Source of the DNA: Ceratorhiza oryzae-sativae
Taxonomy: Eukaryota > Basidiomycota > Agaricomycetes > Cantharellales > Ceratobasidiaceae
Direction: 5' to 3'
Length of the DNA stretch: 55,427 nt
Assembly: GCA_030998015.1 (NCBI GenBank)
Contig: JARWMV010000100.1
Span: 1-55,427, forward strand
Within the stretch, counting starts at the first letter, position 1, and the number at the start of each line of letters is the position of its first letter. The position numbers were made by a program, and so were the translations under genes. Below, one piece after another: positions 9,050-43,329 of this stretch. The notes beneath the pieces were generated by a model that saw only the letters and a list, made by a program, of their open reading frames with translations, had not been told where the DNA came from and did no database searches.

Positions 9050-9070
9050 AACCTAACCTAACCTAACCTA
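9050..9070. repeat. Telomere-type repeat (AACCT)4, i.e. TTAGG on the minus strand
   Basis: Four perfect AACCT units end exactly where the 5'-truncated PLE copy begins (9071). Degenerate CCTAAT and AACCTAG units precede it from about 9020. The pentamer is TTAGG, not the TTAGGG hexamer usual in fungi. Confidence 0.85.
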
Positions 9071-9080
9071 GAGGAACCGG

Positions 9081-10312: not shown

Positions 10313-10336
10313 AACCTAACCTAACCTAACCTAACC
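10313..10336. repeat. Telomere-type repeat between PLE copies A and B
   Basis: Nearly five AACCT units join the 3' end of copy A to the truncated 5' end of copy B, with six A residues (10337-10342) at the second junction. Confidence 0.85.
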
Positions 10337-10754: not shown

Positions 10755-10774
10755 GTACTCACCAATTTGAAACA

Positions 10775-12544
10775 ATGGCTCATGAGCTTTGCACTGCCGT
10801 GAGTAGATGTCCGACTGATCGTTCGCAACGAAACATTGCAACACGATACAGTGAGTGCAGTTTTCTGTAGCTTCTGAATTCCTCTGACATGGGGTGTCCC
10901 ATCATTCAACTCATGCAGTACTGTGCAATGTGCGGAGATGGAGGTCAGTTACTGGATTGCGATAGTTGTGGTTCATCGTACTGCTACTGGGTGGAAGTGG
11001 AAACTGCCATTGGTAAGTTTGACAACGACTCAAGGCTGTCACTGACATTCGATACAAGCCCAGCAGAACGATCACCCTAACGAGCATGCGTGCGTGAGCC
11101 TTCCTCAAGGCACCAATGTTGGGCGCTTCAGCTCCTTGTGCCCGACATGTCTCAGCAAGCGAAGTTCAAACAATCCCCCAAAGGTATGTTGAACGAAAAT
11201 TGTTGGGAGACCGCTAAATGTGAGTATAGTACAATATACTCAATTACACACAGCGAGCTCGACGACTGGTTCGGGGAACCACACAACCAGACCTGCTTGT
11301 GGTCATATTTTATCTGGATGCGATGGAGAAGCTGGCTTGCATGGCTGCCGACAGGATTGGCGCATCTATTCGGGTGCTTGAGCTGGAGGTAAGTCTAGCG
11401 GCAGACCACAGTTCATGAGTATTTAACATGAGTATTTAGGTTCAAGTAATAGTACAATCGGTTACGACCAACATGTGACATGAGTATGAAGCATTTATGA
11501 GGTCTGTACTTCCACTTTGCTCTAGATAGGTTACTTAAATTTGCCGTATCCAGCCAACCACATAGCAGCTTCAATATGTGGGCCATTATAATGACCGAGA
11601 GCGATCCACGAGGCGGCTATTGGTTTACAACCGAAGGTCAGGGAGCACGAGCAGAGGCCCAAGAGTTCTTCTGCAAGGTTCTGGGCCAGGTAGAGGATTT
11701 GGCCAAAGCAGCCAAACAAAGTGTTGCGGTCATAGTTTCCTGCAGTACCAACCTGAAGCAGCCAGAGGAACGCAAGAATGTCTTGGATCATTTTTGCAGG
11801 TGAGTATTACCGCATTTTCGATGAGTGCATATCCTGAGTGACCATGGGCAGCACATCATGGGACCTGTTTATAGCCCCTGCAGCGGTAGCTGTCTATCCT
11901 CCTGACATGACCTTGTTCTTAACCGACTGGGTGATTCAAACCCATTACCTCCAACTTCCGCCTTTAAGCTGCTTGAAACGTGCTTGGCTGAGGGATAACC
12001 GAGCACGAGAGCACACCGATCTCATTGTCTTCCACCGGACAACACGGCTCGATCGCATGACTTGCGAACAATGGGTACATGCTCCGGAGGTTCTGCGTCC
12101 GTGGGGTATTCGCTTACCACTGCTGGTATCAGTGTGTAACTGCACGTGGACCACAGGGAAAGAGTCGAGATGGGTCAGTAAGTATAGGAAGACGACCCCC
12201 AGTTTTGGGGAGGCTTTCTATTTCTTTGCAACTTCATGTTGCGGTCACCAGCTGCACCTCGCGGTTTATACAGCAGGACTTGTGCCTTTTTGGCGCCATG
12301 GAACTCAGATGGTGATAGTGCCAATCGATGCAGAGGGAAATGTGAAGTTTAATCGTCGAACAATGTGCAAGTTCAAGATCACTGTAAGTTTTTTATGTCA
12401 CTAATCTGATTGCGAGGGCCATACTTATAGTCACTCCAGCCGCCTCAGCCCAAGGAGCATCGCCCTAGACACGAAGGTCCGTGGACGTTGGCCGGGCGAC
12501 TTGCGCAAGCACAAGACAGTGTCGCGCAGCTGGGGTTGAACTAA
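10775..12544 (+). CDS. PHD-type zinc-finger protein with C-terminal module shared with the sirtuin
   Basis: Eight exons by eye: 10775-10798, 10919-11012, 11059-11183, 11254-11388, 11440-11474, 11530-11799, 11852-12383, 12431-12544. All phases match and the total is 1329 nt (442 aa). The N-terminus has CAMCGDGGQLLDCDSC, then EHAC and CPTC, a cysteine/histidine series like a PHD finger. The GDGG-L-L-x-CD-x-C form is found in PHDs that read the unmodified H3 N-terminus (AIRE/BHC80 type). A helical linker follows, then WAIIMTESDPRGGYWF and VAVIVSCSTN. The C-terminal part (TDLIVFH...RPWGIRLP...CNC...TSCCGH) parallels that of the sirtuin. PLE copy B ends about 20 bp before the ATG, so the promoter may be element-derived. 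The first intron (120 nt) is the least certain. Confidence 0.65.
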
Positions 12545-13379
12545 ACTGCGCCTGAATCGATGCAGTTTCCCATGTATATCAATTGATTTCTCGATGTATA
12601 TAAGTATCAGCATGTCCTTAATTCTCACAGTTGTCCGATGACCTCTAAAGCATATGCATGAACCGCCTCAGCCGCCAAAGCAGTTAGTGTTCCATAAACA
12701 AGTCACTCTGACCTATCTGTGGTTTTGTGAGCTTGAAGCACTTGAATGGCCGAGTTAGTAACCGATTGTTAACATTAATTAGCAGTTCTCTAATTGACTG
12801 TCAAAATGAGCTGCGCAATATCGTTCCACAAGGAAAATTAGCACAGGCATGCTGGTCCTTTGGTGCGCCGTTATATTCAGGTATTACGCCCATTATGCCC
12901 ATCCTGTCAAGTGGTCTGCCCTCTGGGCATAAATCGCTCCCTTTAGAGAGCTGTTGTACATCACATCAGTATGGTACTCTCAGCTTCAGGTAATTTACAT
13001 TTCACATGTCATTATGAACCAAGTGAAATCCGAGCCAAGGATACTCTCCAGTAAATAACTGTCGGGTATTTATATCTCACTTCTTTACTGAGCACTTGGA
13101 ACATCTTGCATCCCGATCTCACATCTACCACCTTGACCACGTCATTCAAGACCAAGACAACACTGGAACGTCTCTCAACTTGCTTCAATACTGGCTTAAC
13201 GTGTAATTATTTTGCCAATTGTCCCTGTCATTAGTAGTCGCTTGAGCACCCAGCCACCAATAGTTGTCACATCATCACTATCGATGATCGTGCACGTAGA
13301 GCAAGTCGTAGTTAATTTCACATGTTGAAGGTGGGAGTCACGTGGTGAGTGGAGGGCTAACTCCTACCATTACAGCGCC
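12545..13379. other. Intergenic, no gene recognised
   Basis: Only short frames without domains are present. The last part before 13380 presumably holds the promoter of the H3-tail gene; no clear core promoter motif was found. Confidence 0.5.
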
Positions 13380-13682
13380 ATGCCACGCACAAAACAGACC
13401 AACCACAAACGTACTGGCGGAAAAGCCCCAATGAAATCTAGTAAGTATAGGTTGTTCGTCATTCCAAAAAGTGGTACCTAACATTTCAAAGTGGCAGCTT
13501 ATCTAGCTGAAGAAGGCACGGGCAAGGGGGCTGGCCCTAGCAGTCTTGAGGGTGCGTGTTTTGTGTAGCGAATAACGTTTTTGTTGCTAAAAAACCAGCA
13601 GTACAATTCAAGAATCATCTGTCCAGCATTCCCAGCGCAAACGCGGGTGGCGAGGAAAGCAGGCTGACCGCAGCTCACAACG
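13380..13682 (+). CDS. H3-tail-like protein 1 (N-terminal exons, probably truncated gene)
   Basis: Exon 1 (13380-13440) encodes M then PRTKQTNHKRTGGKAPMKS, which aligns without gaps to the histone H3 tail ARTKQTARKSTGGKAPRKQ: R2, T3, K4, Q5, T6, K9, T11, G12, G13, K14, A15, P16 and K18 are identical. A 51-nt intron (13441-13491) leads in phase to MAAYLAEEGTGKGAG, and an intron at 13552-13598 leads to a third exon ending near 13682. There is no histone fold. After 13682 no convincing continuation is seen before the next H3-tail start at 14080, so this is either a short protein or the remnant of a longer paralogue. Removal of Met before Pro would expose an H3-like N-terminus. Confidence 0.6.
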
Positions 13683-14079
13683 GTATGTGCATCATAAACC
13701 TGACCTCAAACACTATTGAGCCTAGTTTTGAACAGACAGGGAGTGAGTGAGAGTATCAGGGGATACACAGCTGATAGCGTCTTTGAACTCCCTGTACCGT
13801 GGAATTTAGTTTCCAAATATTATAACGAAATACGTTTGATAATTGTGCTACAATTGAATTTTCACCACTCTCCTATTGCATGCTATATACCTAAACTGCT
13901 GTCCACCAATAATATATTTATTACAGCACCTGAGAGACTGGGTCCATTTGAGGTGAAGGCAACAGACCCTGATCACTGTGGCGTTCCAGGTGCACGTGTT
14001 CGCGTTTGTTTTAGCGCACGTGTTGGCGTCACACGAGCCCTTACCCACTACACGAAACCATCGACATACGCTCTGAATC

Positions 14080-15353
14080 ATGGCCCGAACACGCACCACA
14101 GCCCAAAAATCGAGGGGAGGCCAGGCTGGCCCATCCACTGTGCCTGCTGAGGATGCGGACTGGACATTCGTACCTGAGTCAACGGTGTTACCCGCTGAAT
14201 ACAGTCCGGATGAAATTGAGCAACCATCAGTCAGGGGTTCAAGTAAGAAGGGAAAACGGAAGGCGATGGTAGAAGAAGGACAAAAGGGACGACACTGTGA
14301 GCCTCACAAGCTTGTGATGTGTTCTTCTGACCAGGACATGGAGCGCAGTGATTGTCCGTGCAATCAATACATTCAAACTAATGAAAATGGGGTCCCTTTA
14401 TACCCCCAACCCTTCAAAACCCGACTGGAGAGGGGTCAAGCTCACAGGCATCGTCACCGCTCTGAGCGACCCCAATACCCACGATGTCATTGCAAGTGGA
14501 TATTGGGAGCTCGAAGGTTTTCCGGTTCTGACCGAAGCCATGTCGGTGTTTCCAACCAACTCCTGCGTTCAGAGGGTTGAATTTTTTGCCAGCAGGTGAG
14601 CATCTGCACTTTTTACCTTTTCCCTAAGATGTAAAAACTCACTCGATTCCCGAAGGGAATTTCCCGTTTTGTGCTTTGAAACTGCCGAATACTTGTATGT
14701 CCCGCTGATCCCGATGCTGGTGTATGAACGAATATGGGATGATTTCATCGCAGCTTACAAGTACAACGGAATGCTTGCGCGGCCGTTCAAGGATCTTCAA
14801 GGACGCGATCCCTGTCCCTCGTGGTGGATCGAACGGGATATGTACCCAAGGTTTGCCTTGGCGGTTCGAAGGTATGACCGCAGCGAACCAGATCAATCAG
14901 GGCTCCCATGGAACAAGCAAGAAAAGGATGACGAGTACCGTGGGGAGAAAGCAAGAAAACGCAGGAGGATACAGAAATCCTCCGAAACATCTCCTGTTGG
15001 CGTACGGGATCCACACATCGAAAAGAAGGTGAGCAGTGCGAGGGGGGAGGGGGACTCAGCAAGGCTAATATATTTTGAACGCAGGTTCCATCGACAGAAG
15101 ATACAGAGCAGGATATTGTACCACGGCAGGACCAAGCATCTCGGTGTGCAGCAGTAGAAGGCGCCAGCCCCAAGCCTGGGTTTTTTGGAAGTGCAAATGT
15201 GTCAATCGAAGGTAAGCATCCAAACGGCGACAGGTCAAACTGGAAATGAAATTTAACTGCTGTTTTTTACCAGCACCATTGTCGAGTGAGCAAGCAATCA
15301 GATCAAGTGCTTCTAACACGCCTTCAGGCTCTAACCAGATTGTGTGTACCTGA
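14080..15353 (+). CDS. H3-tail-like protein 2 with PSWW domain
   Basis: Five exons: 14080-14296, 14349-14595, 14656-15028, 15085-15211, 15274-15353. All phases close and the total is 1044 nt (347 aa). The N-terminus after Met, ARTRTTAQKSRGGQAG, follows the H3 tail, keeping A1, R2, T3, T6, A7, K9, S10, G12, G13 and A15, with K4 changed to R and K14 to Q. A KKGKRK patch comes next. A folded region follows: GVKLTGIVTALSDPNTHDVIASGYWEL, then FETAEYLYVPLIPMLVYERIW and PSWW. A basic segment (GEKARKRRRIQK) lies near the end. There is no histone fold. The folded part resembles the partial gene at 1-1004. Function is unknown; the tail suggests binding to H3-tail readers or modifying enzymes. Confidence 0.65.
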
Positions 15354-15441
15354 GTAAAAGAAATCAAAGCATATTGATTAATCGGTGCTATAAATAAAGG
15401 ATCCCACCCGAGCACCAGATCGCGCCCTAGACGGATCACCA

Positions 15442-16224
15442 ATGTCGCTCGACACCACGTTGCCTGCAACGCAACCAATCAATCCCCCACCAAATCCTAC
15501 CACTCAAACAGGCAGCCGCATGCAAGGCGACACAATCCAGACCGCGATAACACCAGACCCTATTTCTACCCTTCCTCATGTTGTTGTTGAGTCTGCTGGT
15601 GAGCCACTGGCTTCCCCATCAGCCTCCGATCCCAGACCCGGCATCAGGGCAGCTGCGATAGCTGCCCTGATGCCAGATATCTTTACATATGACGTACATG
15701 GAACCTGCAGCCCAGGAGCGCTGCATGAACCGGTGGTTGTCGAGGCCCGGCAGGTATTCCGGAACATCTTCTTGTTCCAGGTGTCACCAGCGGTCTCGAA
15801 AATAGGGTTTCGTGAGTGGTCGATTGAGCGGTGGCCTTATAGCATGTGGGGGAATCCTGCAACACTTGGCGTTGTTATACAGTTCTTGCTCCCCGTTCAG
15901 GCTATCCTCCCGACTGCGAAGGAGCGTATCCCGATGATATGCTTGTTGGAAATGTTCGCCGCCGCTGTGGTCATTCCAATGGCACAGCGGGGAGAACTTC
16001 AGGACAGGTTGGTGGCTCGTTTGTCTATCTGGGCTAGGGACGGGACATTGTGCACGCTGTTTGGCACGGAACATTACCTCTCGATCTGGATGTATGTCAT
16101 GCGGACAGTCAAAACCTGGGAAGCTGGCCTCAAGGAAACCGATATCGAAGGGCAGATTGCCGAGTTCGATCGAACAATGTTTGACTGCACTTTCGATGTT
16201 TCTAAGAATCTCCCCCCATCCTGA
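15442..16224 (+). CDS. Hypothetical protein, single exon, 260 aa
   Basis: The frame is open from ATG 15442 to TGA 16222-16224, preceded by only about 90 bp after the H3-tail gene on the same strand. The first 70 residues are Pro/Thr-rich and look disordered. The rest has alternating hydrophobic and charged stretches with several Trp residues (REWSIERWPYSMWG, LSIWARDG). I recognise no family. Inside the gene an inverted repeat (CAGGGCAGCT...AGCTGCCCTG, about 15645-15670) encodes the GIRAAAIAALMP segment. Its position suggests that it belongs with the neighbouring chromatin-like genes, but this is only context. Confidence 0.55.
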   Translation: MSLDTTLPATQPINPPPNPTTQTGSRMQGDTIQTAITPDPISTLPHVVVESAGEPLASPSASDPRPGIRAAAIAALMPDIFTYDVHGTCSPGALHEPVVVEARQVFRNIFLFQVSPAVSKIGFREWSIERWPYSMWGNPATLGVVIQFLLPVQAILPTAKERIPMICLLEMFAAAVVIPMAQRGELQDRLVARLSIWARDGTLCTLFGTEHYLSIWMYVMRTVKTWEAGLKETDIEGQIAEFDRTMFDCTFDVSKNLPPS

Positions 16225-18538
16225 TCCTGTCTCACGACCGCAGCCATTCCGTCGTAAATTGTTATATTCGGACAGTCTTTTTTTCATTTAAGTTGTACTG
16301 TAGAAACATGCTCGCTTTATGTTTTCATCCTATTCCTTCAAGAAAAAAGCACGCTGTACAAATATATAAATGTTTCATCTTCTTCAAACTGCCTGCCCTC
16401 AGAATTCTCAGCTGTCCAAGACTTTGAGCACACTTGCCACTTTCCTTCAATTGCTAAATTGTCATACGTTATGTCCACTTGTATAAAAATAAATGCATTA
16501 GGCAATTCATAGTAACCTAGAGGCTAGGTCTAATGCTGTCAATTCCACAAAGACACAAAAGGACAAGGGGAAGGAAAATGGCACATCCAACAGCTGAGCT
16601 CTATGCCCCGTGCAAGACATAGTGACGTCACAGGTGTAGGGGCGTTGGTGGTTGGTAGCAGGTGAAAAGCAGACCATTGTAAGGGGCCATCGAAACGGTT
16701 GGTAAGCCTGGCACATTCCAGAGGAGCGGAAATGCCCAGTGGTACAGAGAAGAGGTGCTGGAGGAATAGGAGTTCCCTTCCGCAGCAGTTCAAGACAAAC
16801 TACTAGATTACAGTTATTCCAGATAGGGTACAACAAAGTACCAGACAGTTTCTTAAGCTTAGCCATACACCTAGCAGGCAGGTGAATCAATGAGCCAAGG
16901 GTGTAGAGGTGTACTACAAGCTGGACGTGACCGGACATTATCCAGAAGAGGAGACTGACATGTGATCAACATATTTGCGCAATGCCTTTGACATACCTTT
17001 CTAGGTAAATCCCAGGGAGTCTGTCTAATATTATCGTCCCTTCCAGAGTCTTTCTACCACTGGATCACAAAATTACGTTTCCCTCCTTTTATCTATGTCT
17101 CGGGCAGCTCTCTTGTGGCAATATTCAGATGGTTCAGTAGTGTCGAGCAGTTGTTGTCCAGTTGATGTCACCTCACTACAGCCAGAATCGTAAAACCTTC
17201 GCTTGGCGATTGCTCCAAGGCAGAATCCTCTGCTGTGAGATCCATAGTAAAGCTTGACATAGCTACTTGGCGTGGTCAATATCCAGTGATGACATTCATT
17301 TCCAGAAAGCGCATGCCGAGTATTATTATCTGCTGCCGTTTGCCCGATGTTCCTAGATGATTGTTTTTGAGTATGGTGAGCAAGTTTTCAAGGCCATTCA
17401 GTTTGCTAAATCATGTATGTTGTAATTAGTTAGAGGGGTGGCTTTCGGATATATCTTCTAAATTTTATCCTGTGCATGACAGAAAAACAAAAATTCTTTT
17501 CATGGAAGAGCAGAACTGGGAACATGCAGACAAAATGGCAGCAAACCCGAGAGGAGATGCCAGCACAATTTGGGCAGGATATGTCGCGTGTGCTGCTCTT
17601 ACGACGGGGGCTAGTACCGTAGGTTACCTATATGTGAGAGGGTTTGGCTGTGTGAATACCCAGCACTCCAACAGAAATACAAAATTTGCAGGAAGATTTT
17701 CTATGTGACCTGGGCTGCTCAAATGTGAATTACTCTGTTATGAAATGTTTCTGACAGGGAATTTGTGTTCAGCAAGCTTATAGCATGGAGCTGGTTCAAG
17801 TTGTTCATAAGCAGACCCTGGGCACTACCATCCGCCCATGGAGTTGTTGATTGAAGTAATCTCAGTTTTTAGAGTGCTACCAAGCATGCTCGAAATTGCC
17901 CCACTGGCAGATACAAAGCACAACTTCTCTGATGGGACGCCATAGACTGTTGTACCTCTATAGTGATTGCCTATAGCGGAGCACCCGGATAGCAATGATA
18001 ATGTTTGGTGGCCCCTCAGGAATCTTGCGTTTCACTAAAAATTGCTTTGCAGGCCGGCAATGAGTCTTCTGGCACCTGAACAGTGACCAAGGAAAACATG
18101 CCGAATGTTCAATTATGGCGAGCTCAGAGCCAGTGATACCCACAATTTGTGCACTTGGGTCAAACCAAACAGGCTTCGCATACTAATCTGGAGGCACCTG
18201 TGATGTGCACCTGATGGCAGAATTTGTTGACCACTGAACTATCTGCTTGTTCATACTACAGATCCTGGCCACCAGAGGTATAATTTTCAAATTGTTTCAA
18301 GCTATCTGTGCTTGAGCCCACCCGGCGCCAACAGAAACACCCCCAGAATCCCACAGTTCGGTTACGTGATACAATCCGATGACCTGTCAGCATTATGTCA
18401 GCACCTTCACTGTTTTGTTTGTGCTGAGCGGCTCAATGTTGAAAAAGCATAGAGAGAATCCATTGCGGGCGAAGGGGATAACCTATCACATGACAAGTCC
18501 CTCTCGCTTCCTCCAAACCGCTGAGTTTGTTTCCCAAT
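16225..18538. other. Intergenic, no convincing gene
   Basis: The longest frame (143 aa, minus, 16507-16938) is Cys- and Pro-rich with no domain and no supporting splice structure. A 78-aa plus frame at 17472-17708 is equally unsupported. No repeat structure was noticed. Confidence 0.4.
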
Positions 18539-21141
18539 ATGCCCATCTTAACTATACAAAATGGACCTGGCGAATCCACCTATCTCCTAGAGAAACTTAG
18601 CCAAGTTATCAGGTTTGCTCCAGGCATTACTGTTGTATGCGGGGCAGGTATCTCAACGTCTGTTGGAATCAAGGCGAGTTCAACATTTGCACTTTGACGG
18701 GCACGAAAGCTCACTCCCGGCAGGATTTTCGATCTAAAAATGGGATATACCATCAAAATTTCCGCCACAACGGTGCATCGTTATCTGGAAGAGATATGTT
18801 TGACCTAAGCACACTCAGCGACCCAAAGCTATTATGCATCTTAAACATGGAGATGCTAAAGCTCCGTATCCAATGTCGAGCTGCTCGGCTATCGGAGTTT
18901 CACCAGCTTGTGCATTCCTTTCAATGCTTTGATCAGCTGGTGCAATGCTACACCCAGAACTTTGATGGTTTGCAAACACGCAACTATCCACACATGGAAA
19001 AGACTGTATTCGAGCTTCATGGATCCAACTCCCAGCTCATATGTAGACTCTGTCATCAGATCCCAACTCAACCAACAGACTCATTTGATCAGAGGTTTGC
19101 TGACGGCAAGAGCATCCCCTGTCCTAGTTGTGTAGAGCGGAGTAAGTACTTAATAAGCTTGTGCAAATTTTATATTTAAATTATCTTGAGATTCACAAGC
19201 ATTACATCAGGGCAAAAGATTGAGGCCGGTTGGATACCTGGCCCCTGCAATAGTTTTCAACCAGGAATCGGTTGAAGGACGGAATGGGCAAGACTACGAA
19301 CAGATGATAGCAGCCCATGGACAAGCAACTAAGCTTTTGTTAATTGTTGGAACTTCGCTCTTGACTCCCGGGGTTGCATCCATGGCGAAGAGCCTGTCTA
19401 GACATGTTCGTGATGGGGGCAGCCTGGTCGTTTATGTGAATAGGGATGGCCCAGCAGCAACTTGGAATCGATATATTGACCTGCATGTTTGTACTGATAG
19501 TATTGATATCTGGGCCAAGGAGATCAGGAAACTGTACGCAGAGGTTGGCGCATCCAATTATCCTACTCGAGTTCCACTAACACATTCCCTACAGGTGGAG
19601 CCGAAGCAACCACAACAGATCTTTTTGCAACTAGTAAGATGGCTTTTATATCATTCATAGTCCAGCTGAGCCCTATGTTCTCGTAGTTACAGGAATTGAA
19701 GCAATTAATGGATGTTGAGCTATCCAGCCAAATGATGCCCAACCAGGGATCAACTTTGCGCCAAGAGGCTGTCTATGCTGACGGAATTGGCAATACTGGC
19801 CTTTTGGGATCGGACATGGTAAGTACCTGATTGAAAGTTTTCATCTCGCGCTCTCACACGTGCTGGATACCCACGGGGGCATGTCAAAATGTTCAGTCAG
19901 GCAATCTAACACGTGTAAGTCATCAGTTTATTTTTATTCACTGATTATCTTACCCTACAATCCCGTTCCTGACATGCAGCGCACAACAATTCCTGCTGGT
20001 TTGCATTCAAATCTGGAAGCTCCCAAATTCCTGGTTGTGGTTCTGCACCACAAAGATGTCATGTATGATGCAGCAGAAGTTGGTCGGCATGCTGCTGCCC
20101 ACCTTTCTTGTGCTGGCTGGGAGGTGTGCCAAGTGTTCACATCCATTTATTCAGCTAATACCCTCTCTGCAGAGCGATTACCAGACACAACCATTGGACG
20201 GTCGAGATCCTGTCTCCTCTCTGTTTGGCAGGTAAGAGTTTGACCGTGTTCAGCAACGGTATGGTCATACTAACCTTCATTGGTAGAGCATGGTTTCATT
20301 TGGTCCTCATCCATGTCACTAACTTTGTTCAGTCGTTGGAGCCCCAGGGTATCATCGTAGCAGATCCAGATGACATCTCTGAGGTGAAGACATTCGATTT
20401 ATCAATGCTTTCATGTCTGATTGTGCCAGTTGTTAGCTGCTAGTTGTTGGCCGAAGGCACGTCAGGGAAATTTCGAAATTGGCCCTGACACGGCGGGCAA
20501 TCGTGGTTGGCTCTGGATCTCACTTATCTTGCGTGAGCGAAACAAGAGCGTTGGAAGCAGCTATGCAAGGGTAGTATTGTGGGGTATTGTGGGAGTAATT
20601 GCATGGCAGGTAGCTAACATTCTCTTGATGCAGACTTTTTCAATGCGGCGACATTGTTGTCAGCTGGCATCTTAGGAGTTTTGAGGGACCAGCATGGGGT
20701 AGATTTGCTGCAGATGTTTGCGAGGCCACATTGGAAGGCATGGAGAGTGCCATCCCTAGACTAGTCATGGCGTGGATGGAGAACCAGGCTGTTTTCCAGT
20801 CGTCCGATCTTGTCTGGTTCTCAGCCAACCGGCCAACGCTTAATATCGTGGCATCCCCTTTTGACACCAGGCCACTGGGCCGTGCCCTGCCAGACATAAA
20901 TCGTGTGTGTCCTTGCAGTTTGGATGCTCCTCGGGCCCGACGGAAGTTGAAACGGTGGGTAGTGAACCACAACTGCAAGGACGGCACAGCGGTAGCGCAG
21001 GCAGAGGTCACATTGCAGTGCTCGTTGTGTGAGCAGATGTGGTTGCTGCCTACGAAAAACCTATCTGGTATCATCTGCAAGGTCAATGATGTGTTCTCTG
21101 TTGTTGCCCCATATTTTTCTTCCGCCCGTGTATCTCCTTAG
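18539..21141 (+). CDS. Sirtuin (Sir2-family NAD-dependent deacylase) with extra C-terminal domains
   Basis: From ATG 18539 (MPILTIQNG) the protein has VVCGAGIST, then after a 50-nt intron DFRSKNGIY, YTQNFDGLQTR, FELHGSNS (catalytic His), zinc ligands CRLC and CPSC, GKRLRP, LIVGTSLLTPG and VVYVNRDGP. That is the full Sir2 order: Rossmann NAD motifs, catalytic His and Zn knuckle. Introns include 18674-18723 (a GC-AG intron), 19142-19199 and about 19632-19691. Beyond the sirtuin domain come KFLVVVLHHKDVMYD and then CGDIVVSWHLRSFEGPAWGRF. The tail SDLVWF...RPLGRALP...CPC...LQCSLC aligns with the end of the PHD protein. The middle exons (19815-20640) are poorly resolved. Sirtuins remove acyl groups from histone lysines and other targets. 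Confidence 0.75.
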
Positions 21142-21189
21142 TTATAACTTGTTGTGGTCAATCAATGTCAGTGTTCATCTGGGGTGGAT

Positions 21190-22165
21190 GTGAGCCATAA
21201 CACTTGGTCTCATACAAAATTGAACATCTGATCAAAAGGGGGTGGGGAGATTATACAAGAGTATAGAGCGCCGCACAGAAGAAGGGAGAGAGAGACATAT
21301 CGCAAATCTACAGTCAAAACACGTTTACTAGAAGGACAATAAGATGCTATCTAAGAGCGAGATGAAAGCTACCGAAGTAAGTCTGAGAAACGATGCGTGC
21401 GTCTAACATATTCGATAACAATAGAGAAAGCATCTTTATCAGAGAAGAGATAGGAGAGATTCATAAATTCGCGGCCCCTTGAGGCTTGAACCTCCTGTCT
21501 GATCCGCTCAAAGCGGGGGCATCGGAGCATGAAGTGAGCAACTGTCTCTTTGGTTTTCCTGCACCCCTTGCAGATCGGCAAGGCCACAACTTGGATGCTG
21601 TGGAGGTGTCGCTGGAGCTGGATGTGCCCCGTGATGAGCTGGAAGAGGAGAGTAGAGTGGAAGCAAGGGAGATTGGCCATGTCATCGACGAAGGTTTCTG
21701 GCCTGATTGGCAGGTACTTGTCCAGGAGCCTCTGCACCGTGTCCATAATAGTCCAGCCGGAGAACGCGAAAGCGCAGTTTGTTTCCTTGAAGAGGATCTT
21801 CACTATTGAGCAGGTGATTATTCGCTTGTACAGTCTGAGTAGTCTGGGGACAAACTCCAGGGAGTATTGCTCCCTGCTGGCCGCAACCTTGGCCTCATGG
21901 TCTGCCAATGCGTTACCGACGTTGCCCCTGTGAGCGGGGCACCAACGTAGTGCGAGCGATTGCCCGTCCCTCCTAGCCTTGATCTTTTCCAGGCTTGATC
22001 TAATAGCGTCTACCAGCCCCGACGGAGCGCCTTCGGTGAATCCCTCAATGCAGGCAATGGCCAATTGCGAGTCCATGTAGTCAGTCGCTTCGCCGATATA
22101 CAGCATGCACTCCTGGATCTGGGTAGCACAGGATGCCTGCCAGCTCGCCCTCCAGTATCCACTTT
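21190..22165 (-). mobile_element. 5'-truncated LINE fragment, RNase H and zinc knuckle
   Basis: An open minus-strand frame (21369-22106, 245 aa) carries MDSQLAI (RNase H region), LRWCPAHRGNVGNALADHEAK (H and D of RNase H), and a terminal CKGCRKTKETVAHFMLRC knuckle. Only the C-terminal part of the ORF2 polyprotein is present. It is from a different lineage than the copy at 3440-4765, because the linker sequences differ. The frame is intact, which suggests a younger insertion than the left copy. Confidence 0.75.
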
Positions 22166-23400
22166 ACTTCACTTGTATTCACTTGTGTATACCCCCTCTA
22201 AGTGATTTCAAGCATTATGCTAATGAGTGGCGAATGGTCCACGTTATTTGATCGCCTAATGCTCAGCACGCATGGGCTGGGGCAGGAGCAAGGATGAAGC
22301 CCTGCACAACAAGTGCAAGGGCCCACATCTCAGCTTCAAGGAGTGTAGACCTGCACCCAAGACCAAAGGTTTTGGATTACACTTTGTGGCTACTTTGCAA
22401 AATGTGGAGGCCTGGTTCCTTTGTTGTGAGACCATTGACAACCACCACTCAACTTGTGCTAGTGTCATTTTCATTGCGCTAAAGTCCAACTACGTTGAAA
22501 AAACACTCAAAACCCACCCAATCCAAGGCTTCATTGTCAGAAGGTATCGGCCTTGGAAAAACTCCTGACTCAAACGACAAGATGTAGTTTCACCGTCAGG
22601 ACAAGACATACCATCTAGGTGTGGGTCAACTTGTGGCAAGCATCCACACTTCCTCTCCCTCCCATGTTCCTGATATTGCTACTCATAAACCACTCATCAT
22701 GTCCCTTGGCCAGAGGGCAAAAGCTCTCACAATGGGTGTCTTCACTCAACAACACTGTACACATCGAGATTGTAGCAACCAAGTGAAAAGAAATGTTACA
22801 CAGTGGTTCTTTCCACAAAGCAATGGGAGCAAAGGCGACTGTTACATAAAAAATTGGAGTAACAAGGAGCATGGGTGACCATACAAGGGTGGAAAGATGT
22901 GTATTTTACTTTGCAAGCATGACCTTGTATCAACCAGGGGCTTTCCCTGGAATCATGGGATTCAAAATTTTGGAAGTGTAGCTGGTATAATCAAAAATCC
23001 ACAGAGCAAGGCAAGCCCGGCAACGTTGATGTGCAAAATATACAATTGAGACTCTGGATCTAAAACTTCCACAATGGGAGAGTTGCAACAGTGGACTTGT
23101 AGATCATGTCTAAGAGAGGTATATATGCATTGGGTTCAACGTTAGCTATTAGAACTGCAGACTATTGAAGATTAAAATACTATTTTCTTGACGACTTTAG
23201 CCAACAAGTAACCCTCCGTCACTAAGGAAACCTTTCTCTCAGGGGCCAATAATGGGGTGATGTAGAAAGAAGTTTCCTGCACCTTGTACATACTGTAGAT
23301 GTCTTACATAGCCTCAGGCTGAGTTGGGAGAATCATCTACATTCAAAAAAACATAATTCCTCTTTGATTGCTATATTTTTTATGATTGCAGTATATACAT
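22166..23400. other. No gene recognised
   Basis: CpG-poor sequence with overlapping short frames on both strands near 22256-22568 and 22615-22878; none has a domain. Confidence 0.4.
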
Positions 23401-24645
23401 GTAATGCTGCACACAGTGGTGTCACGTGACAGGTTTCCCGCCCCATCCATGCGGGCCAGGCCCGCAGCTGTTGGCCCAGAGGGGCTCCACATGTACCTCC
23501 AGGACCTTTAAGCATTTGTTCTCAGTCACAAAATATAAGCCATCGTGAACAGATTTTTCAAACTCTCAATCTATTTGAATGAATCTGTGTATCATGCCCC
23601 AGAACTGGGCGCTCACACATGATTGTCAACATTGTTTATTTAATCAACATATATCACGTGACATCACTCTCTGTCCTGTCCATGCGGGCCAGGCCCACAG
23701 ATGGAGCAGAGGGTTTCCACAGCTACCTCAGGAGCTGTTATACATTTAATGTTGATGTTTATTTTCACTGAGCGATTATAAACCCTGATGAACAACATCT
23801 GTGTCAATGAATCCGTGTATCAAACACAAGATCAGTGACACTCACACGATTATTGGCAGTGTTTCTGTGAATAAGCGGTAGTCACGTGACATCGTTCTCT
23901 GTGGTGTTGGTGTGGGCCAGGCCCGCAGGTGTATCAGAGGGTCTCCATAGCAGCCTCAGGAGCTGTTAAACATTTAACAGTGATATTTATTCCCACCGAG
24001 TGATTATACATCTGGATGGGCGACATCTGTCTTAACAAATCCGTGTATCAAACACATGATTATTGACAATGTTCGCGCAAATCACTGGTAATCATGTGAC
24101 TTCACTCTCCATCCTGTCCATGCGGGCCAGGCCCGCAGGTGTAGCAGAGGGTCTCCACAGCTGCCTCAGGAGGTGTAAAACATTAAATAGTGATATTAAT
24201 TCTCACTGAGTGATTATATGTCTGGATGGGCAACATCTGTCTTAATTAATCTGTGTATCCAACACAAGATCATTGACACTCAGACATAATCATCAACATT
24301 GTTCAAGCAAATCGATGATAGTCACGTGACCTCACTCTCCGTCCTGTCCATGCGGGCCAGGCCCGCAGTTGCAGCAGAGGGTCTCCACAGCTGCCTCAGG
24401 AGCTGTTAAAAATTTAATAGTGATGTTTATTCTTGCTGAATGATTATCAGCCCTGATGGACAACCTGTTCAAAATGTCAATCTGTTTCAATGAGACTGTG
24501 TATCATACACCAGAACATGGGTGCTCGCACATGAATACCAAAGACATTTATGATGTAATCAGCTCAGGTCACGTGACCTCAGTCCCCATGCCGTCCATGC
24601 GGGCCAGGCTCGCAGCTGATTGCATGCAAGTTGAGTTCAACCTAG
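23400..24645. repeat. Satellite array, about 210-240-bp unit, six copies
   Basis: Units recur near 23420, 23655, 23880, 24090, 24320 and 24565. Each starts at a CACGTGAC-type palindrome and about 20-30 bp later has the palindrome TGCGGGCCAGGCCCGCA (8-bp arms around one A). The motif AGAGGGTCTCCACAGCTGCCTCAGG follows in a variable form, and the rest is AT-rich. The palindrome cores keep their CpGs although the surrounding sequence is CpG-poor. No coding frame is shared. The array lies directly left of the telomere-type repeats and 5' end of the full-length PLE. Confidence 0.85.
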
Positions 24646-24831
24646 TATAGGATTAAGTGGTAACACAACTGTTTTTTGAATGAAATGGTGATAATAGGTT
24701 TAGATCAGACATCTGGTGTGCCTCTAGACTAACAGACCATGGGGTGATGCAAAAAGTACTTGAGTGAGAGTAGAGGTATGCTGGAGATTTCCCAACCTAG
24801 CTCCACCTAGATTTCAGTATTAACCTAACCT

Positions 24832-25426
24832 AAGGGAGGATTAGTCATCTTGGATGACTTGTCCTTTACTCTCTAGCTGACTAAGTGTCACGTGACTCAG
24901 GATATATTACAAACCCCTGGTCACTTAGTCAGGCACTTCTTGGTCCTCAGGGTTTGAGCGCCTGTTCTGGCGCTTTGAGAACCTTCAGGGTCCCCCGGGC
25001 AGGGTCTGGGTGGAGTTGAGTTGAGCCCTCGGCCGGTTGATCCTCGGATCACCAAGTCCGTGGGAGCCTCGGCTTCACACGGATCAGCTCGGTTCGGACC
25101 TTGAAGGCTCTTGGCGTTAGTCAGGTGTCTCCCCCTGATTGGCCAGTCGTGTGGAGGAGTGATCACATGGACGGTTACCATGCGGTCAGGATCAGTCAGC
25201 TGTTCTTCTCCTTTGTTCGGTTAAGTCTTCTTCCCTTGGCGTTTCTCACGCCAGTGACGTGGCATGTTCGTCTGCCACGGCATAAAAAAAGACACAGTGG
25301 AAGGGCTCTGATGAGTATCTACGAAAGTCTCTCCCGGGTATCTACCTAGGAGTTCTTAGCCTTTCTTCCGCTCGTCGCCGCTCGTGCTCGCTCCGCTCGC
25401 ACTCACGTCTCCTCGCTCCACCTAAC
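24832..25426 (+). repeat. Left pseudo-LTR of the PLE
   Basis: Matches 28961-29552 nearly base for base. It contains the inverted repeat CTGACTAAGTG/CACTTAGTCAG (24877-24887, 24922-24932) around TCACGTGA, the hammerhead-like core, and a CG-rich end. Transcription of ORF1 probably starts within it. Confidence 0.85.
25299..25369 (+). ncRNA. Hammerhead ribozyme-like motif, left pseudo-LTR
   Basis: CTGATGA at 25308-25314 and GAAA at 25323-25326. Stem I is GGAAGGGCT (25299-25307) with AGCCTTTCTTCC (25358-25369). Predicted cleavage is between 25357 and 25358. Confidence 0.6.
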
Positions 25427-25465
25427 CCAATTGAGTGCCCTGCCCCCTCTTCTCTGCTCGCTAAC

Positions 25466-26570
25466 ATGGTCGCCCCCCAAGTCCGTTCTTCGACCGCGAC
25501 CGGTTCTATGCCGTCGTTCGCCCGTGCCATGTCCCCGGCCCTGTTAGGGCACATGTCTACAGCCGCCATCGCTGATGCAGAGAAGCGCATGGTGGCCTCT
25601 GGACATGCCAAGAGCTGGACGGAGCTCTTGGAACTCGTCCCCCTCGCGTATAGGGACACCTTACGCGAGCCGTTTAAGGAACTCAACTCCCTAGTGGAGA
25701 AGTTCCATAACGTGCAAAGGGTAGTCGCTCGCCTAGGCGAGTCGATGAACAAGGGCGAGCTTCCGACGCAAGTCCGCAGGTTGAAAGAACCTGCGTGGCA
25801 AGTGTCGAAGGAGTTCAGGGCGAACCCGCAAGGGTCAGAGATGCTGCAGACGCTTTCTGCTGCCCACACCGCCTATGTCGACCAAGCCTATGCGCATGGT
25901 CGTGAACTCAAGGCCGCTGAGGAGACATTCCTCCGGTCGCAGTTGGCGCACGACGTCTGGTGCCCAACTTGGAAGCGGAAGGTCGAGGATGCCTACGTGG
26001 CACTCCAACGTACCATCGCCCCCCGCATTACCGAGGCTGTTGAGGGTCAACCTCCAGCCATCGAATATGTGGAGGACCCTTTCCGCAAAGGCGAAAAGGA
26101 CCGTCTCATTGCAGACCTCCCCACCTTCGGCACTCGGATCATCGAGATCCAAAATGCTCGCGCGGTCGCAGAGAAGGTGAAGGTGGCAAGGAAGACGGCC
26201 ATCAAGGATGCTGCCGACGTCGACATGGATGTCGACGATAAACCCATGGACCCGGCCGCCATTAGGGCCATGGTTGGTGCAGAGATTAAGCGGGCGCTTA
26301 ATCAAAATGTGAGTATTTTCGATTGGTCAGGTAACTCACAGCCTAACGTCGGTTTAGCCGATCGCCAAGCCCGCTCCCAAGGGCAAGGCTCCCAAGTTAG
26401 GCCCGATCGCGCGCAAAGGCAAGGGGAAGACAGGCCATACGAGTCCCAAGACAGGACTCGCAGCCCCCCTCCACTATGGCCCTGCCCAGAAACGCAAGTT
26501 CAAGGGCCAAGGTGCGAACAAGAACAAAGGCGGCAATTCCAACGCTGGGCCGAGCAGAAGATCCAAGTGA
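25466..26570 (+). CDS. PLE ORF1, basic-tailed protein with one 49-nt intron
   Basis: The ATG at 25466 is the first in frame after the pseudo-LTR. Exon 1 (25466-26308, 281 codons) is rich in charged helices (YRDTLREPFKELNSLVEKFH, KVKVARKTAIKDAADVDMDVD). A 49-nt intron (26309-26357; GTGAGT, branch CTAAC, TTTAG) removes a frame change. Exon 2 then encodes PIAKPAPKGKAPKLGPIARK and a Lys/Gly-rich tail ending NAGPSRRSK at the stop 26568-26570, for 351 aa in all. Read through unspliced, the frame continues without the basic tail, so the intron is the better model. A basic, low-complexity tail fits RNA binding; the role in the element is inferred. No zinc knuckle is seen. Confidence 0.75.
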
Positions 26571-26717
26571 TCAGAAGCTCTGAATGGAGGTATGAACATC
26601 CGTCTAGTTATCCAGACGATATATTATACTTACCAATTAATATAGCCATCAAAATCCTACTTGAGCGCGTCCCTTATGAAATAAGGAGGTTGGCCTCGTT
26701 TAGGAAAGGGGTTCACG

Positions 26718-28754
26718 TTGGGCCGGGGGGTAGTTCTCCCCATTAATGTATCGATTCATCTGTCTGCCGGTTTGAAATATATGATGTTTTCTCCCGTGAA
26801 TCGTGCGATCATCAGTAATGCATGGCAAGATTTTTGCAATCGCTTGAGATGGAAGTACTTCTTCCTGAGTAAAGATGCTGACGATGATGCTGAAGCAGAG
26901 TACTTACCGCAGTTTGACTTTAAGGGTAAAACCTCAGAAGGTGCACCCGATATGAGTCGAAACATGGAAGCAGGTCTTGAGAAAGGGCAAGCGTCTATTG
27001 AGCGAATGCTCGATGCTATTCCCCCTCATGGATTGCCAAGAGATCACGGTCTTGTGCAGTTAAAGCCTGTTAAGGACTTCATCGACAACGGTGGATACTT
27101 GGTCCTTCCTACGGACAAAAACCTCGGATGTGCGGTCGTAACACGTGAGTGGTACCTTCAGCAGTGTCTTAAAATGCTTGAATCCACGGATTATCAAAAA
27201 ATAGTCCCATTCATAGCACTAGGACATATGGTTAGAAAACGCGAAGCTATTAGGAAACTGGCTAAAGAAGGGGAATGGCCCGGTGCCTCTAAACAGCAAC
27301 GCAAGTGGTGTGTACACGCCATCCCTGAATGGGACCCCTGGAAAGGGATGCCCAGGTTTTATGGTATCCCCAAGATACATAAAAACCCATGGAAAATGAG
27401 ACCAATCGTTCCATGTCACTCAGCGATGGTAAATCCAGCCGCTAAGATTTTCAGCCATTTACTCAAGCCTATAGTCAAGGCGCGGCCTTACGTTTTAGAA
27501 GGAAGTAAGGCTCTAGCTATAGCGCTCGAAGGGGTGAAACTCCCCAAGGATCGGAAAGTATGGATAATCTCAGGCGATGTCACGGCCTATTATCCGAATA
27601 TTCCACTCTTTGAGAGTAGGAAGATTGTGGCCACATATTGTATAGACCACTACTATCCTGAATGGTTTAATGATAATGACGAATTGGGAGAATTATCAGA
27701 AAACCAGATCCATAAGATGAAGGCATTCTATGATCTTTTCGACATAGCCAATGACAACCTCATCTTCAGATTTCAAGACCAGTTCTATAGGCAACTCAAA
27801 GGCCTGGCTATGGGGGTAGCGTCATCCCCAGACATAGCCAACCTTTATGGCGCTTATTTTGAGGAACAATTTATACCAACGGAATCAAGAATTTTATTCT
27901 ACCGAAGGTATATCGACGATGTACTAGCTATAGTAGAGGCAGATGACCATGAAGAAGCCTTGAAAATATGTAGCGGTATTAAGTTCGATGGTTGCGAAAT
28001 CGTATGGTCTGCGAATAGAGATTTCTCTATCTTTCTGGATATGTTCATATTTATAAAGGATGACCGCGTCCATTATAGAGTGTACAAGAAAGCGCAGAAC
28101 AATCAAGAACGTATCCCATGGGCGTCTCACCATCCTCTTGATGTCAAAAGAGGCACCTTCATTGGTGAGATTACCAGGATGGCTACCCTATCAAGTACTA
28201 AGGAGTACTATGAACTGGCCTTGAAGGATCTGCGGGATCTGTACTTGGCCAGGGGGTACCCACCTCACTGCATTAAAACATGGCTGAATAAGCATGCAAC
28301 CGAACGCTGGAGGAACCGTTTGGCTCCAAAAGATGTCGCATCAGAACAGACAGGCAGGTTGCACGTCATTAAGACAGTGTTTAATCCAGTATGGGATTAC
28401 GTTGACATACACGAAGTACATAAAGCGATACTTAGTGAATGGAACAAAGACGTTGTTCCAAGGCAAACAGCTCGACAGCTCACCCTGTTTGAGGTTGGGG
28501 TGGCACAGCCCCAACGCAGAACCCGGCGTCGCAAGGTGGCGCGTGTTACAGCTAATCTCGCTTCTGTGTCGGAGGTGATTAGTGAGTCTGACTCCGATCA
28601 GGAGGAAGAAGATCACCTACCCAGGTCCGCGCGGCTTGGAATACAGGACAGGACAGCACGTAAAAACCTTAGGACAAAGGATGACGCCCTTGCCCAACTA
28701 GTCAATCAACGCCTGATATTATCTCGCAAACGCCCTCTGGCAATTGGGATTTAA
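26718..28754 (+). CDS. PLE ORF2 reverse transcriptase, no GIY-YIG endonuclease
   Basis: Residue numbers count from 26718. Seen in order: PTDKNLGCAV (about 131-140, the DKG-like motif of PLEs), FYGIPKIHK (214-222), SGDVTAYYPNIP (catalytic D287), GLAMGVASSP (motif B, 362-371), RRYIDD (catalytic D400/D401), and GTFIGEITRM (479-488). The first in-frame ATG is 26781. Similarity of the upstream frame suggests that coding begins earlier and shifts frame at the G6 run 26725-26730. The C-terminus is also damaged: a one-base deletion near 28750 ends the protein at ...LAIGI, about 39 residues before the end seen in copy A. The core active-site residues are intact. The enzyme would copy element RNA using a chromosome-end 3' terminus as primer. 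Confidence 0.85.
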   Translation: MGRGVVLPINVSIHLSAGLKYMMFSPVNRAIISNAWQDFCNRLRWKYFFLSKDADDDAEAEYLPQFDFKGKTSEGAPDMSRNMEAGLEKGQASIERMLDAIPPHGLPRDHGLVQLKPVKDFIDNGGYLVLPTDKNLGCAVVTREWYLQQCLKMLESTDYQKIVPFIALGHMVRKREAIRKLAKEGEWPGASKQQRKWCVHAIPEWDPWKGMPRFYGIPKIHKNPWKMRPIVPCHSAMVNPAAKIFSHLLKPIVKARPYVLEGSKALAIALEGVKLPKDRKVWIISGDVTAYYPNIPLFESRKIVATYCIDHYYPEWFNDNDELGELSENQIHKMKAFYDLFDIANDNLIFRFQDQFYRQLKGLAMGVASSPDIANLYGAYFEEQFIPTESRILFYRRYIDDVLAIVEADDHEEALKICSGIKFDGCEIVWSANRDFSIFLDMFIFIKDDRVHYRVYKKAQNNQERIPWASHHPLDVKRGTFIGEITRMATLSSTKEYYELALKDLRDLYLARGYPPHCIKTWLNKHATERWRNRLAPKDVASEQTGRLHVIKTVFNPVWDYVDIHEVHKAILSEWNKDVVPRQTARQLTLFEVGVAQPQRRTRRRKVARVTANLASVSEVISESDSDQEEEDHLPRSARLGIQDRTARKNLRTKDDALAQLVNQRLILSRKRPLAIGI

Positions 28755-41275: not shown

Positions 41276-42180
41276 CACTGCAATAGGAGCTCCCCACTCC
41301 TCCCAGCTGCATTTCCTGCACCAGTACGGACAACACCAGGCACCAGTTTAAAGTGCACAAATATGTCGGTATTGTCCAGAAGACAGTCAAAAACAAGGTT
41401 GTCTCTTCAATCATCTCATTGGCACCAGGAGCGACAGCTCCCAAGCCCAGGACTGCAAAACATACTGTGTTGCCAACCCCTCCAGTGTTCCCATAGACAA
41501 TTCCAGGATCATGTACATCCTGATGAACCTAAAGAAGGGCATCCCCAAACAGTGGGGCCAATAGGACCTCAACAAACTGCTTGGAGGAGACCAGGATCTG
41601 ATTCTTAACAGTTGGGGAGCATTTGAAACAGTATTCCTTGTCAATTGGTCTGATCCAGCAGCCCTGCAGGTTTCTGAGTGCTGAATCAACAAGCTGCAAC
41701 AAACAGTTTCTGCCAGTGACTTTGCCATGGAGTTTAGGGTGATTGCAGGCGGGCTGAAATGGTCTGATAGCGCTCTGATGCCCACATTCCATCAAGGCCT
41801 CAAGCCCTATGTCTGCAGCAAGCTGATTGAGCACACCATCGGCCGGAGCATTACCAGTTCAGATGAACGCAATAATATTGCCTGTTCTATTGACAAGACC
41901 CTGTTTGAGGCAAGCAAGGAAAAGCAGTCAGCATCCAAGTACTCTGCTCAGAGTACTTTCAAACCCACCAGTGCAAGATCAGGTGGTTTTGCGACTGTTG
42001 ACATCTGGGAGAAGCGCAGGAAGGCAGCGCATTGCTCCAAATGTAGTTACTCTGGCCATAAGTTTGAAATTTGCCCAAATAGGTGGAAACTGAAGGCTGA
42101 GGAACGTCCAAAGGCAGTCTCAGGGAAGGTTGGAAGCCTGATTGATCTAGAGGAACCTGCACATTTGGGAAAAGCCTAAT
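41276..42180 (+). pseudogene. Gypsy gag remnant with zinc knuckle
   Basis: After a broken 5' part (about 41470-41727), the frame 41727-42179 is open. It has MEFRVIAGGLKWSDSALMPTFHQGL, typical of Ty3/Gypsy capsid, and a nucleocapsid knuckle CSKCSYSGHKFEIC (C-x2-C-x4-H-x4-C). It ends in TAA just before a solo LTR. The protease region should follow but is scattered between inserted LTRs. Confidence 0.65.
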
Positions 42181-42252
42181 GCAGCCCATCTTACCTGTAT
42201 CAGGTGCTGCAATTCCTTCCACAATGTCATCAAAAACCACTTGTCTGTTCCG

Positions 42253-42632
42253 TGTCACAACCAACAACATGTAGACAGCCGGGAGAATCCATGGAGGGAA
42301 ATACTGAGTCTCAGAGCAGCGGAAAGAGTGAATAGACCAGGTAAAGCACTCTGGAGACCAGAGACGCGTCACAGACTTGCTTAAATACTATTTGGGGCGA
42401 AAATGGCAAGCGACATGTAAGTACAAGCAACGGCTAACGCAGTACAAGTGACAGGAAGTGAGTGTCAGCAAGTATAAGCAAGAATAGGCAATGGCAAGCG
42501 AAACAAGCAACAGTAGGTGAAGATGGAGGCAAATGCAAAAGTACATGTTTCAAAAAGCAGGCAAAATCAAGGAATCGCAAGAGAAATATCATAAATGAAA
42601 TCAATTACATGTCTGGAGCAAGGCTCATGACA
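42253..42632 (+). mobile_element. Solo LTR, near-matching target duplication
   Basis: Starts TGTCACAACCAACAACATG and ends CTCATGACA. The flanks are TTCCG (left) and TTCTG (right), a 5-bp duplication with one C-to-T change at a CpG. Confidence 0.75.
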
Positions 42633-42921
42633 TTCTGCAATCCAATCCAAATCATTGCTCCTAATCACTCTTGACAATCAAATGATCACAGGCTCCGATT
42701 CAGCTCTGATGAACTCTGGATCCTCTGCAAAATTCATTGAACCTCAACATGCATGTCATCTGCCTATTCCCCTCACAGAACTCAGTGCCCCTCAATAGGT
42801 TGTTGGGATTGATGGCAAGGAAGTCAGGGACTTGGTCTGCTTCAAAAGCACCCTCAAAGTCGCTGTACAATCAAATTCCCTCACTGCAACATTCTTATGT
42901 CTAACTCTTGGTGACCAGCAC
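42633..42921 (+). pseudogene. Degraded Gypsy protease-region sequence
   Basis: Stop-ridden sequence between two LTR insertions, where the protease of the surrounding Gypsy body should be. No catalytic DTG/DSG motif can be seen. Confidence 0.35.
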
Positions 42922-43314
42922 TTTCACAAGCCTTGCTCCTGACGTGCTCATTGATTCTAATTGTGATATTTCTCTCTGATTTCCTTGATTTTGCCTGCTT
43001 CTTGCAATGTACGCTATTACATGTGCTTCCATTCTTGCTTGTTCCTGTTTATCTCCCTTATACTTGCTTAGATTCACTTCCTGTTGCTTGTAATGCCACT
43101 AGCCCTTACTTGTAGTTTAGCCTTCTTCATGATATTTGCACTGAACTGGATTTAAGAAAGTCTGTGAAGCATCTCTGATCTACAGGGTGCTTCTCTTTGT
43201 CATTGCACATCTCTTACTGCTCTCAACCTGCCTCTTTTTGCCCCAGAGCTCTTTTGAAGTACTTTCCAAGGCTCAGTTCTCATCCAAACTGGCTACAAGT
43301 CATCTTTTGTGACA
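42922..43314 (-). mobile_element. LTR, reverse orientation, inside Gypsy body
   Basis: Begins TTTCACAAGCCTTGCTCCTGA and ends ATCTTTTGTGACA, the reverse complement of the family LTR. The flanking pentamers (AGCAC, GGGAT) do not match. Confidence 0.65.
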
Positions 43315-43329
43315 GGGATATCATTTAAG

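Follow-up and report, generated by a model that had tools for sequence, protein, structure and literature searches.

The window, by which we mean the whole stretch of DNA analyzed here (bases 1-55427 of contig C100, from a genome of 48.8 Mb in 253 contigs), contains one copy of a repeated block. Within it lie two neighboring genes, gene 1 and gene 2, whose predicted products begin like the N-terminal tail of histone H3, together with an orphan gene (gene 3), a sirtuin-like gene (Sir2-B) and a cysteine-rich gene. The features are, in order along the window:

10756-24833, no strand: window copy of the repeated block, with right end CCTAACCTAA; a repeat cuts its left side
10889-12404, plus strand: cysteine-rich, zinc-finger-like gene of approximate extent, PHD-like in spacing by eye only
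13380-13440, plus strand: gene 1 exon 1, MPRTKQTNHKRTGGKAPMKS, H3-tail mimic, with its ATG at 13380
13492-13551, plus strand: gene 1 exon 2, splice sites kept across copies
13602-13682, plus strand: gene 1 exon 3, splice sites kept across copies
13736-13746, plus strand: gene 1 exon 4, ending in a TGA stop that is the same in all six copies
14080-14296, plus strand: gene 2 exon 1, beginning MARTRTTAQKSRGGQAGPST, second H3-tail mimic, splice sites kept in all six copies
14349-14595, plus strand: gene 2 exon 2, splice sites kept in all six copies
14656-15028, plus strand: gene 2 exon 3, GT-AG model
15085-15211, plus strand: gene 2 exon 4, GT-AG model
15274-15353, plus strand: gene 2 exon 5, stop at 15351-15353
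15442-16224, plus strand: gene 3, a single-exon orphan of 260 amino acids, in all six block copies
18566-19657, plus strand: Sir2-B, sirtuin-like (PF02146), ends and splicing approximate
21369-22163, minus strand: non-LTR retrotransposon remnant in the block (RNase H and zf-RVT matches, each short of the curated cut-off)
25286-28754, plus strand: adjoining retroelement with a weakly reverse-transcriptase-like open reading frame and CCTAA junctions

Genes 1-3 occur together at six places in the genome, namely the window and contigs C22, C18, C72, C235 and C36, within a block of at least 14 kb; genes 2 and 3 were not found in the genome outside these six copies. The gene pair described in a sequence-only reading of this DNA thus belongs to a six-copy block with a sirtuin-like gene, both of which that reading had missed.

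The models of both genes are based on splice sites conserved across the copies and not on transcripts; intron lengths of 50-62 nt agree with a fungal origin. Gene 1 is predicted to encode 70 amino acids in four exons, MPRTKQTNHKRTGGKAPMKSMAAYLAEEGTGKGAGPSSLEVQFKNHLSSIPSANAGGEESRLTAAHNDRE; its introns measure 51, 50 and 53 nt, the GT/AG borders of the first two are kept in all six copies, and the frame is open to the same stop in each. A first model of 76 amino acids, which entered the Pfam and relatives searches described below, was wrong in its last nine residues: the acceptor that it used, CTAG at 13725, is absent from four copies, and GAACAG, present in six, was taken instead. The predicted product of gene 2 has 347 amino acids in five exons (14080-15353), with introns of 52, 60, 56 and 62 nt that are all GT-AG and kept in six of six copies; the gene is open throughout in only two of these, and the C18 copy is broken. 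Gene 3 is open in five of six copies, and its predicted structure was useless (mean pLDDT 35).

Both start codons, at 13380 and 14080, lie where the sequence-only reading had put them, and the gene 2 stop codon ends at 15353. An in-frame TGA stands two codons 5' of the gene 2 ATG, and no copy of gene 2 has an in-frame Met within 150 nt upstream before a stop; the same is true of three of the six copies of gene 1. In C18, C72 and C235, which are nearly identical, the gene 1 frame remains open through all 50 codons scanned upstream and includes in-frame ATGs, which would allow the tail to be internal there. This is the strongest argument to be had from sequence against an exposed gene 1 tail in those three copies.

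The H3 tail, ARTKQTARKSTGGKAPRK, is present in part in both genes. The start of gene 1, PRTKQTNHKRTGGKAPMKS, is identical to it at 13 of 19 positions and keeps K4, K9, K14 and K18, with R in place of S10; our recount agreed with the number and the lysines given in the earlier reading. That of gene 2, ARTRTTAQKSRGGQAG, is identical at 10 of 16 positions (10 of 19 on the 19-residue scoring), keeping A1-R2-T3, K9 and S10 and carrying K4R, R8Q and K14Q, which includes the R2, K9, S10, K4R and K14Q that had been reported. The suggestion of locked sites fits K4R and K14Q, which are the same in five of six copies; the C36 copy reads H at position 4.

Resemblance of this extent is far beyond what chance provides. 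When all 2,483 ATGs on both strands of the window were scored against the H3 tail, genes 1 and 2 gave the best two matches and the third reached 6 of 19; scaled to the roughly 2.2 million ATGs of the genome, these scores lead to a chance expectation of 1e-6 starts with at least 13 of 19 identities and 0.003 starts with at least 10 of 16. Among one million residue shuffles of each tail, the gene 1 score was reached 0 times and the gene 2 score about 10 times. The 20-residue tails, searched with phmmer against PDB chains, gave best E-values of 1e-4 for gene 1 (with R8) and 0.07 for gene 2, and the best 60 of 131 matches for the former, like the best 60 of 84 for the latter, were all H3, H3 variants, H3 peptides or an H3 fusion. 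The pattern Met-[APST]-RTKQT has six matches in the 48.8 Mb, consisting of five gene 1 copies and one canonical H3, and its reversed control has none. A chance match was rejected on the ATG scoring and this pattern search.

The earlier reading had taken homologues lacking the H3-like start as a sign of chance or annotation error. Within this genome, PRTKQTN[R/H]KRTGGKAP is retained in five of the six copies of gene 1; the remaining one, C36, a copy with CpG-transition decay, has PHTKQTNRKCTSGKAP. Position 8 is H in the window copy alone, through a change from CGC to CAC that is of the CpG-transition type; the other five copies have R8 and hence match H3 at 14 of 19 positions (counted by eye), the decayed C36 excepted. 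A third, unrelated H3-tail-like start, MARTLQTARVSTGGKAPRKQIADK (K4L, K9V), was noticed at C249:172450-172767 on the minus strand, upstream of kinase frames (PF07714, 63.8 bits over hand-joined pieces); in-frame ATGs lie farther upstream, and the tail there may be internal.

Beyond their tails, the two proteins match neither histones, as had been proposed, nor any other family: no histone domain appeared in the Pfam and PDB searches of genes 1 and 2. Pfam gave nothing at E≤10 for the earlier 76-residue model of gene 1 and nothing at E≤1 for two exon frames of gene 2, and the PDB gave nothing at E≤10 for the whole of gene 2. An ordinary H3 gene was rejected on the missing histone fold and on the location of the canonical H3 genes elsewhere in the genome. 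Among 5.8 billion proteins, no relative of either product, and no homologue in another species, was found by protein search; the gene 2 search yielded 1,428 word-sharing candidates with none at E≤10, and the gene 1 search, run with the model that was wrong in its last nine residues, no candidate sharing three words. When the H3 tail itself was compared with longer proteins, 3,820 of 3,985 candidates fell at E≤1 and the best 120 carry PF00125; non-histone carriers of an H3 tail could be hidden below these best 120 of 3,820.

The six copies of the block fall into two types. Over 14,080 bp the identity between the window and C22 copies is 98.8%. Among C18, C72 and C235 it is about 99%, and between these three and the window 80-94%, the lowest value (80%) being in the stretch of genes 1-3; C36 shares 97.8% identity with C18. 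On the right all six copies end alike, in ATTAACC, with more CCTAA units in the window and C235. Among the 15 pairs of 3-kb right flanks, 14 are without a match and one, window and C72, shares 594 bp of retroelement, and a simple segmental duplication with flanks is therefore not supported. On the left the copies are not alike. A repeat also present at 9925, 10360, 25030 and 29158 cuts the window copy at 10756, C36 stops earlier, and C72 and C235 extend to the final base of their contigs, within satellite sequence that goes on in C18. As to terminal inverted repeats of the kind that bound DNA transposons, no partner longer than 13 nt was found for the right-end 110-160 nt in the stretches examined, and the left ends vary among copies or run into satellite. 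The C22 copy ends 23 kb from its contig start; for C36 and C18 the distance to a contig end is 26 kb and about 56 kb. Overlapping matches to a 25-nt CCTAA pattern, 20 in number, lie on five contigs.

These sequence features are more suggestive of a chromosome-end or mobile unit than of a segmental duplication with flanks. It is probably telomere-associated, with CCTAA as the putative telomere repeat of this genome. The parts of the Agaricus bisporus study drawn on here describe Penelope-like elements at two chromosome ends without telomeres and, in one variety, RecQ helicase genes forming a subtelomeric family (PMC7473861).

Two of the copies appear to have decayed under DNA methylation. Transitions at C22 CpG sites account for 40 of the 61 differences between the window copy and C22, as against 9 of 61 in the opposite direction; between C36 and C235 the corresponding numbers are 101 of 130 and 9. 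This pattern points to methylated, silenced DNA in the window and C36 copies, and C-5 methyltransferase gave four exon-level matches at two places in the genome.

Purifying selection on both tails is strong, to judge by codon comparison. The main comparison, C22 versus C18 by the Nei-Gojobori method with gapped and stop codons excluded, gave eight synonymous and no nonsynonymous changes in the 20 codons of the gene 1 tail (one-sided binomial P 1e-5, in a test that ignores transition bias and on tails that are short), whereas the remainder of the gene (47 codons of the first three exons) had 12 synonymous and 18 nonsynonymous changes (omega 0.40; Fisher P 0.003 for tail versus remainder). With C72 or C235 in place of C18 the tail counts do not change, though these three are not independent. 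When the window copy replaces C22, H8 adds a change and the gene 1 tail counts become 7.5 and 1.5. In gene 2, whose C18 copy is broken, the 17 tail codons had nine synonymous and one nonsynonymous change (omega 0.02), followed by omega 0.10 in codons 18-72, 0.13 in exons 2-3 and 0.73 in exons 4-5. For comparison, omega is 0.16 in gene 3 and about 0.2 in Sir2-B (C22 versus C235), and two non-coding stretches read as codons gave 0.55 and 0.84. The uncharged H3 residues T3, Q5, T6, T11, G12, G13, A15 and P16 are as well conserved as the lysines.

Given the excess of synonymous over amino-acid changes between block types, the H3 likeness is maintained and not accidental, and the earlier proposal that these are H3-tail mimics gains from both the match statistics and the selection on the two tails. 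Constraint at the level of the gene 1 tail (no nonsynonymous and at least eight synonymous changes in 20 codons) is shared by 14 of 622 codon segments in all. Within gene 1, only the segments starting at codons 1 and 2 reach it, but the other 12 belong to genes 2 and 3, which means that the tails are not alone in being strongly constrained.

Next to the mimics, the block encodes Sir2-B, which scored 80.6 bits against PF02146 over profile positions 1-176 of 180 when its exon pieces were joined by hand, and one exon alone reached E 5e-13. The joined pieces contain the sirtuin and catalytic motifs GAGIS, DFRS, TQNFDG, LHGS and GTSL, and thus GAGxS, TQNxD and the catalytic His; the GAGxS motif lies just upstream in another frame, interpreted as belonging to the exon before. 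A second, divergent sirtuin-like gene is present on the left side of the C22 and C18 copies; it scored 35.9 bits in the C22 reading, where the catalytic His seems, by eye, to be replaced. In C22 it is followed by a cysteine-rich finger and a stretch resembling, again by eye, one after Sir2-B, the whole at C22:5896-8622 on the minus strand. The pieces of cysteine-rich sequence tried, from the window gene at 10889 and the C22/C18 stretch, both PHD-like to the eye, had no Pfam match. SIR2 gave 30 exon-level matches genome-wide, ten of which belong to copies of the block while the other 20 are spread over 16 places, and this is many more than expected for other fungi and indicates that the sirtuin-like family is expanded in this genome. 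No H3-tail gene was found beside the matches outside the block (ten matches scored).

We propose that the two genes of the six-copy block encode non-histone proteins whose first 17-20 residues resemble H3, and that these tails serve as decoys against nucleosomal H3, a reading to which we give about an even chance. A Pro or Ala after the initiator Met permits removal of the Met, which would leave gene 1 (Pro) and gene 2 (Ala) with an H3-like free N-terminus containing R2. Gene 1 would then present a writable tail (K4, R8-K9, K14 and K18, with H8 in the window) that lacks S10, and gene 2 a tail fixed in a state like that of unmethylated K4 and acetylated K14. Tails exposed in this way would be competitors of nucleosomal H3 for its binding and modifying proteins, and through the two proteins together the silencing of the block or of the sequence around it might be weakened or redirected. 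The suggestion made earlier, that such proteins recruit or titrate H3-tail readers, methyltransferases or deacetylases, is plausible. The PHD fingers of the genome (16 exon-level matches, 15 over the cut-off) could be among the targets.

It is the combination of H3-like ends with R2, a writable tail in gene 1 and a fixed one in gene 2 that favors decoys occupying H3-tail-binding proteins, and the exact register of a match far beyond chance with the protein start adds to it. The purifying selection on both tails, their uncharged residues included, the gene 1 frame open in every copy, the sirtuin-like gene in the block and the CpG decay of two copies count on the same side. Against decoys we count that gene 1 begins with P and not A, that its frame may extend upstream in three copies, that gene 2 is open throughout in only two, that the 12 equally constrained segments lie in genes 2 and 3, and that a co-encoded sirtuin would support silencing more naturally than oppose it.

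In the main alternative, the tails would attract the sirtuin encoded beside them or supply it with substrate: as substrates or docking sites of the sirtuin-like and zinc-finger-like proteins they would be recruiting handles in a self-contained silencing cassette. Sir2-B, the second sirtuin-like gene of C22 and C18 and the cysteine-rich stretches all lie in the block, and gene 1 keeps K9, K14 and K18. However, Q14 of gene 2 is not a possible deacetylase substrate, SIR2 sequences occur outside the block with no H3-tail gene found beside them (ten matches scored), the zinc-finger-like parts match no Pfam family and the second sirtuin-like gene seems, by eye, to lack the catalytic His, and we regard this alternative as unlikely.

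It is more improbable still that the H3-like start is kept merely as a basic peptide for nuclear localization or DNA binding. K and R are abundant in the tail, and nuclear import is among the functions of H3 tails. Yet the uncharged H3 residues of gene 1 are unchanged between C22 and C18, gene 2 already has basic stretches farther on (SSKKGKRK and ARKRRRIQK), and in both genes the match starts exactly at residue 1. That the tails are fragments of an H3 gene caught in a decaying repeat and devoid of function, as the repeats, the CpG decay and the broken gene 2 copies might suggest, is very improbable in view of the unaltered gene 1 tail (no amino-acid against eight synonymous changes), the constraint on the bodies of genes 2 and 3 (omega 0.13 and 0.16) and the splice sites kept in all six copies.

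The decoy reading has precedents in H3-like peptides that occupy the H3 pocket of a reader or enzyme. SNAG proteins are zinc-finger transcription factors whose SNAG domain resembles H3 only loosely, whereas here 13-14 of 19 residues are those of H3 and the bodies are orphans. As described in the portion of the literature cited, the N-terminal peptide of the SNAG proteins SNAIL1 and GFI1 fills the H3-tail pocket of LSD1, which accepts N-terminal H3 mimics starting with Pro, and the P2A exchange in GFI1, directly after Met, blocks LSD1 binding (PMC5896174). The present proteins would be alike in placing an N-terminal peptide in the H3-tail pocket of a chromatin enzyme. The PHD finger of UHRF1 recognizes an H3-like end with R2: its H3 pocket takes up the ART-like motifs of PAF15 (1-VRT-3) and DPPA3, and mouse DPPA3 competes with H3 for UHRF1, although these motifs have three residues and belong to single host genes, at least in the sections quoted (PMC11187062). 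H3-mimic sequences restrain the H3-binding protein in fungal Swi6/HP1 (PMC7192584) and in the histone-mimicking linker of BAZ2B (PMC5663869); as presented in the excerpts used, both act inside their own protein and not, as here, as a separate gene pair. Viruses likewise divert chromatin proteins by H3-like motifs, ARSK in influenza NS1 and ARKS in SARS-CoV-2 ORF8, which in the excerpted account are four-residue motifs rather than N-terminal tails (PMC10208167). Repeat-encoded anti-silencing proteins are represented by VANC of the Arabidopsis VANDAL transposons, which bind specific non-coding DNA of the element, and the part of that paper drawn on mentions no histone mimicry (PMC10398659).

Histone mimicry is thus already familiar from viruses and some host proteins, where it takes the form of short motifs; what is new is that a pair of genes carried by a repeat has long H3 tails at the N-termini. 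No report of a repeat-borne or fungal pair of this kind was found in the largely open-access literature searched on H3 mimicry, anti-silencing and sirtuins. We offer as a tentative and still doubtful possibility that a telomere-associated, duplicating block controls its own chromatin through a writable and a locked H3-tail decoy and a sirtuin, and that this is the first repeat-borne system with long N-terminal H3 tails. If this is true, repeated genomic blocks, too, can fight or steer chromatin through histone imitation, and the writable and the locked tail would constitute a natural pair of reagents for studying H3-tail contacts in silencing.

The retroelement beside the block, at 25286-28754, is presumably of the Penelope/Coprina type. 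Short arrays of CCTAA (not CCCTAA) lie at retroelement junctions at 9052-9071, 10315-10334 and 24824-24833, and longer ones are found on five contigs. Just before the right end of the block, self-overlapping BLAST matches mark a diverged tandem repeat at 23421-24618, where Tandem Repeats Finder reported no array. Farther along the window, frames resembling the Gag and reverse transcriptase of an LTR retrotransposon can be recognized by eye at 41685-44259.
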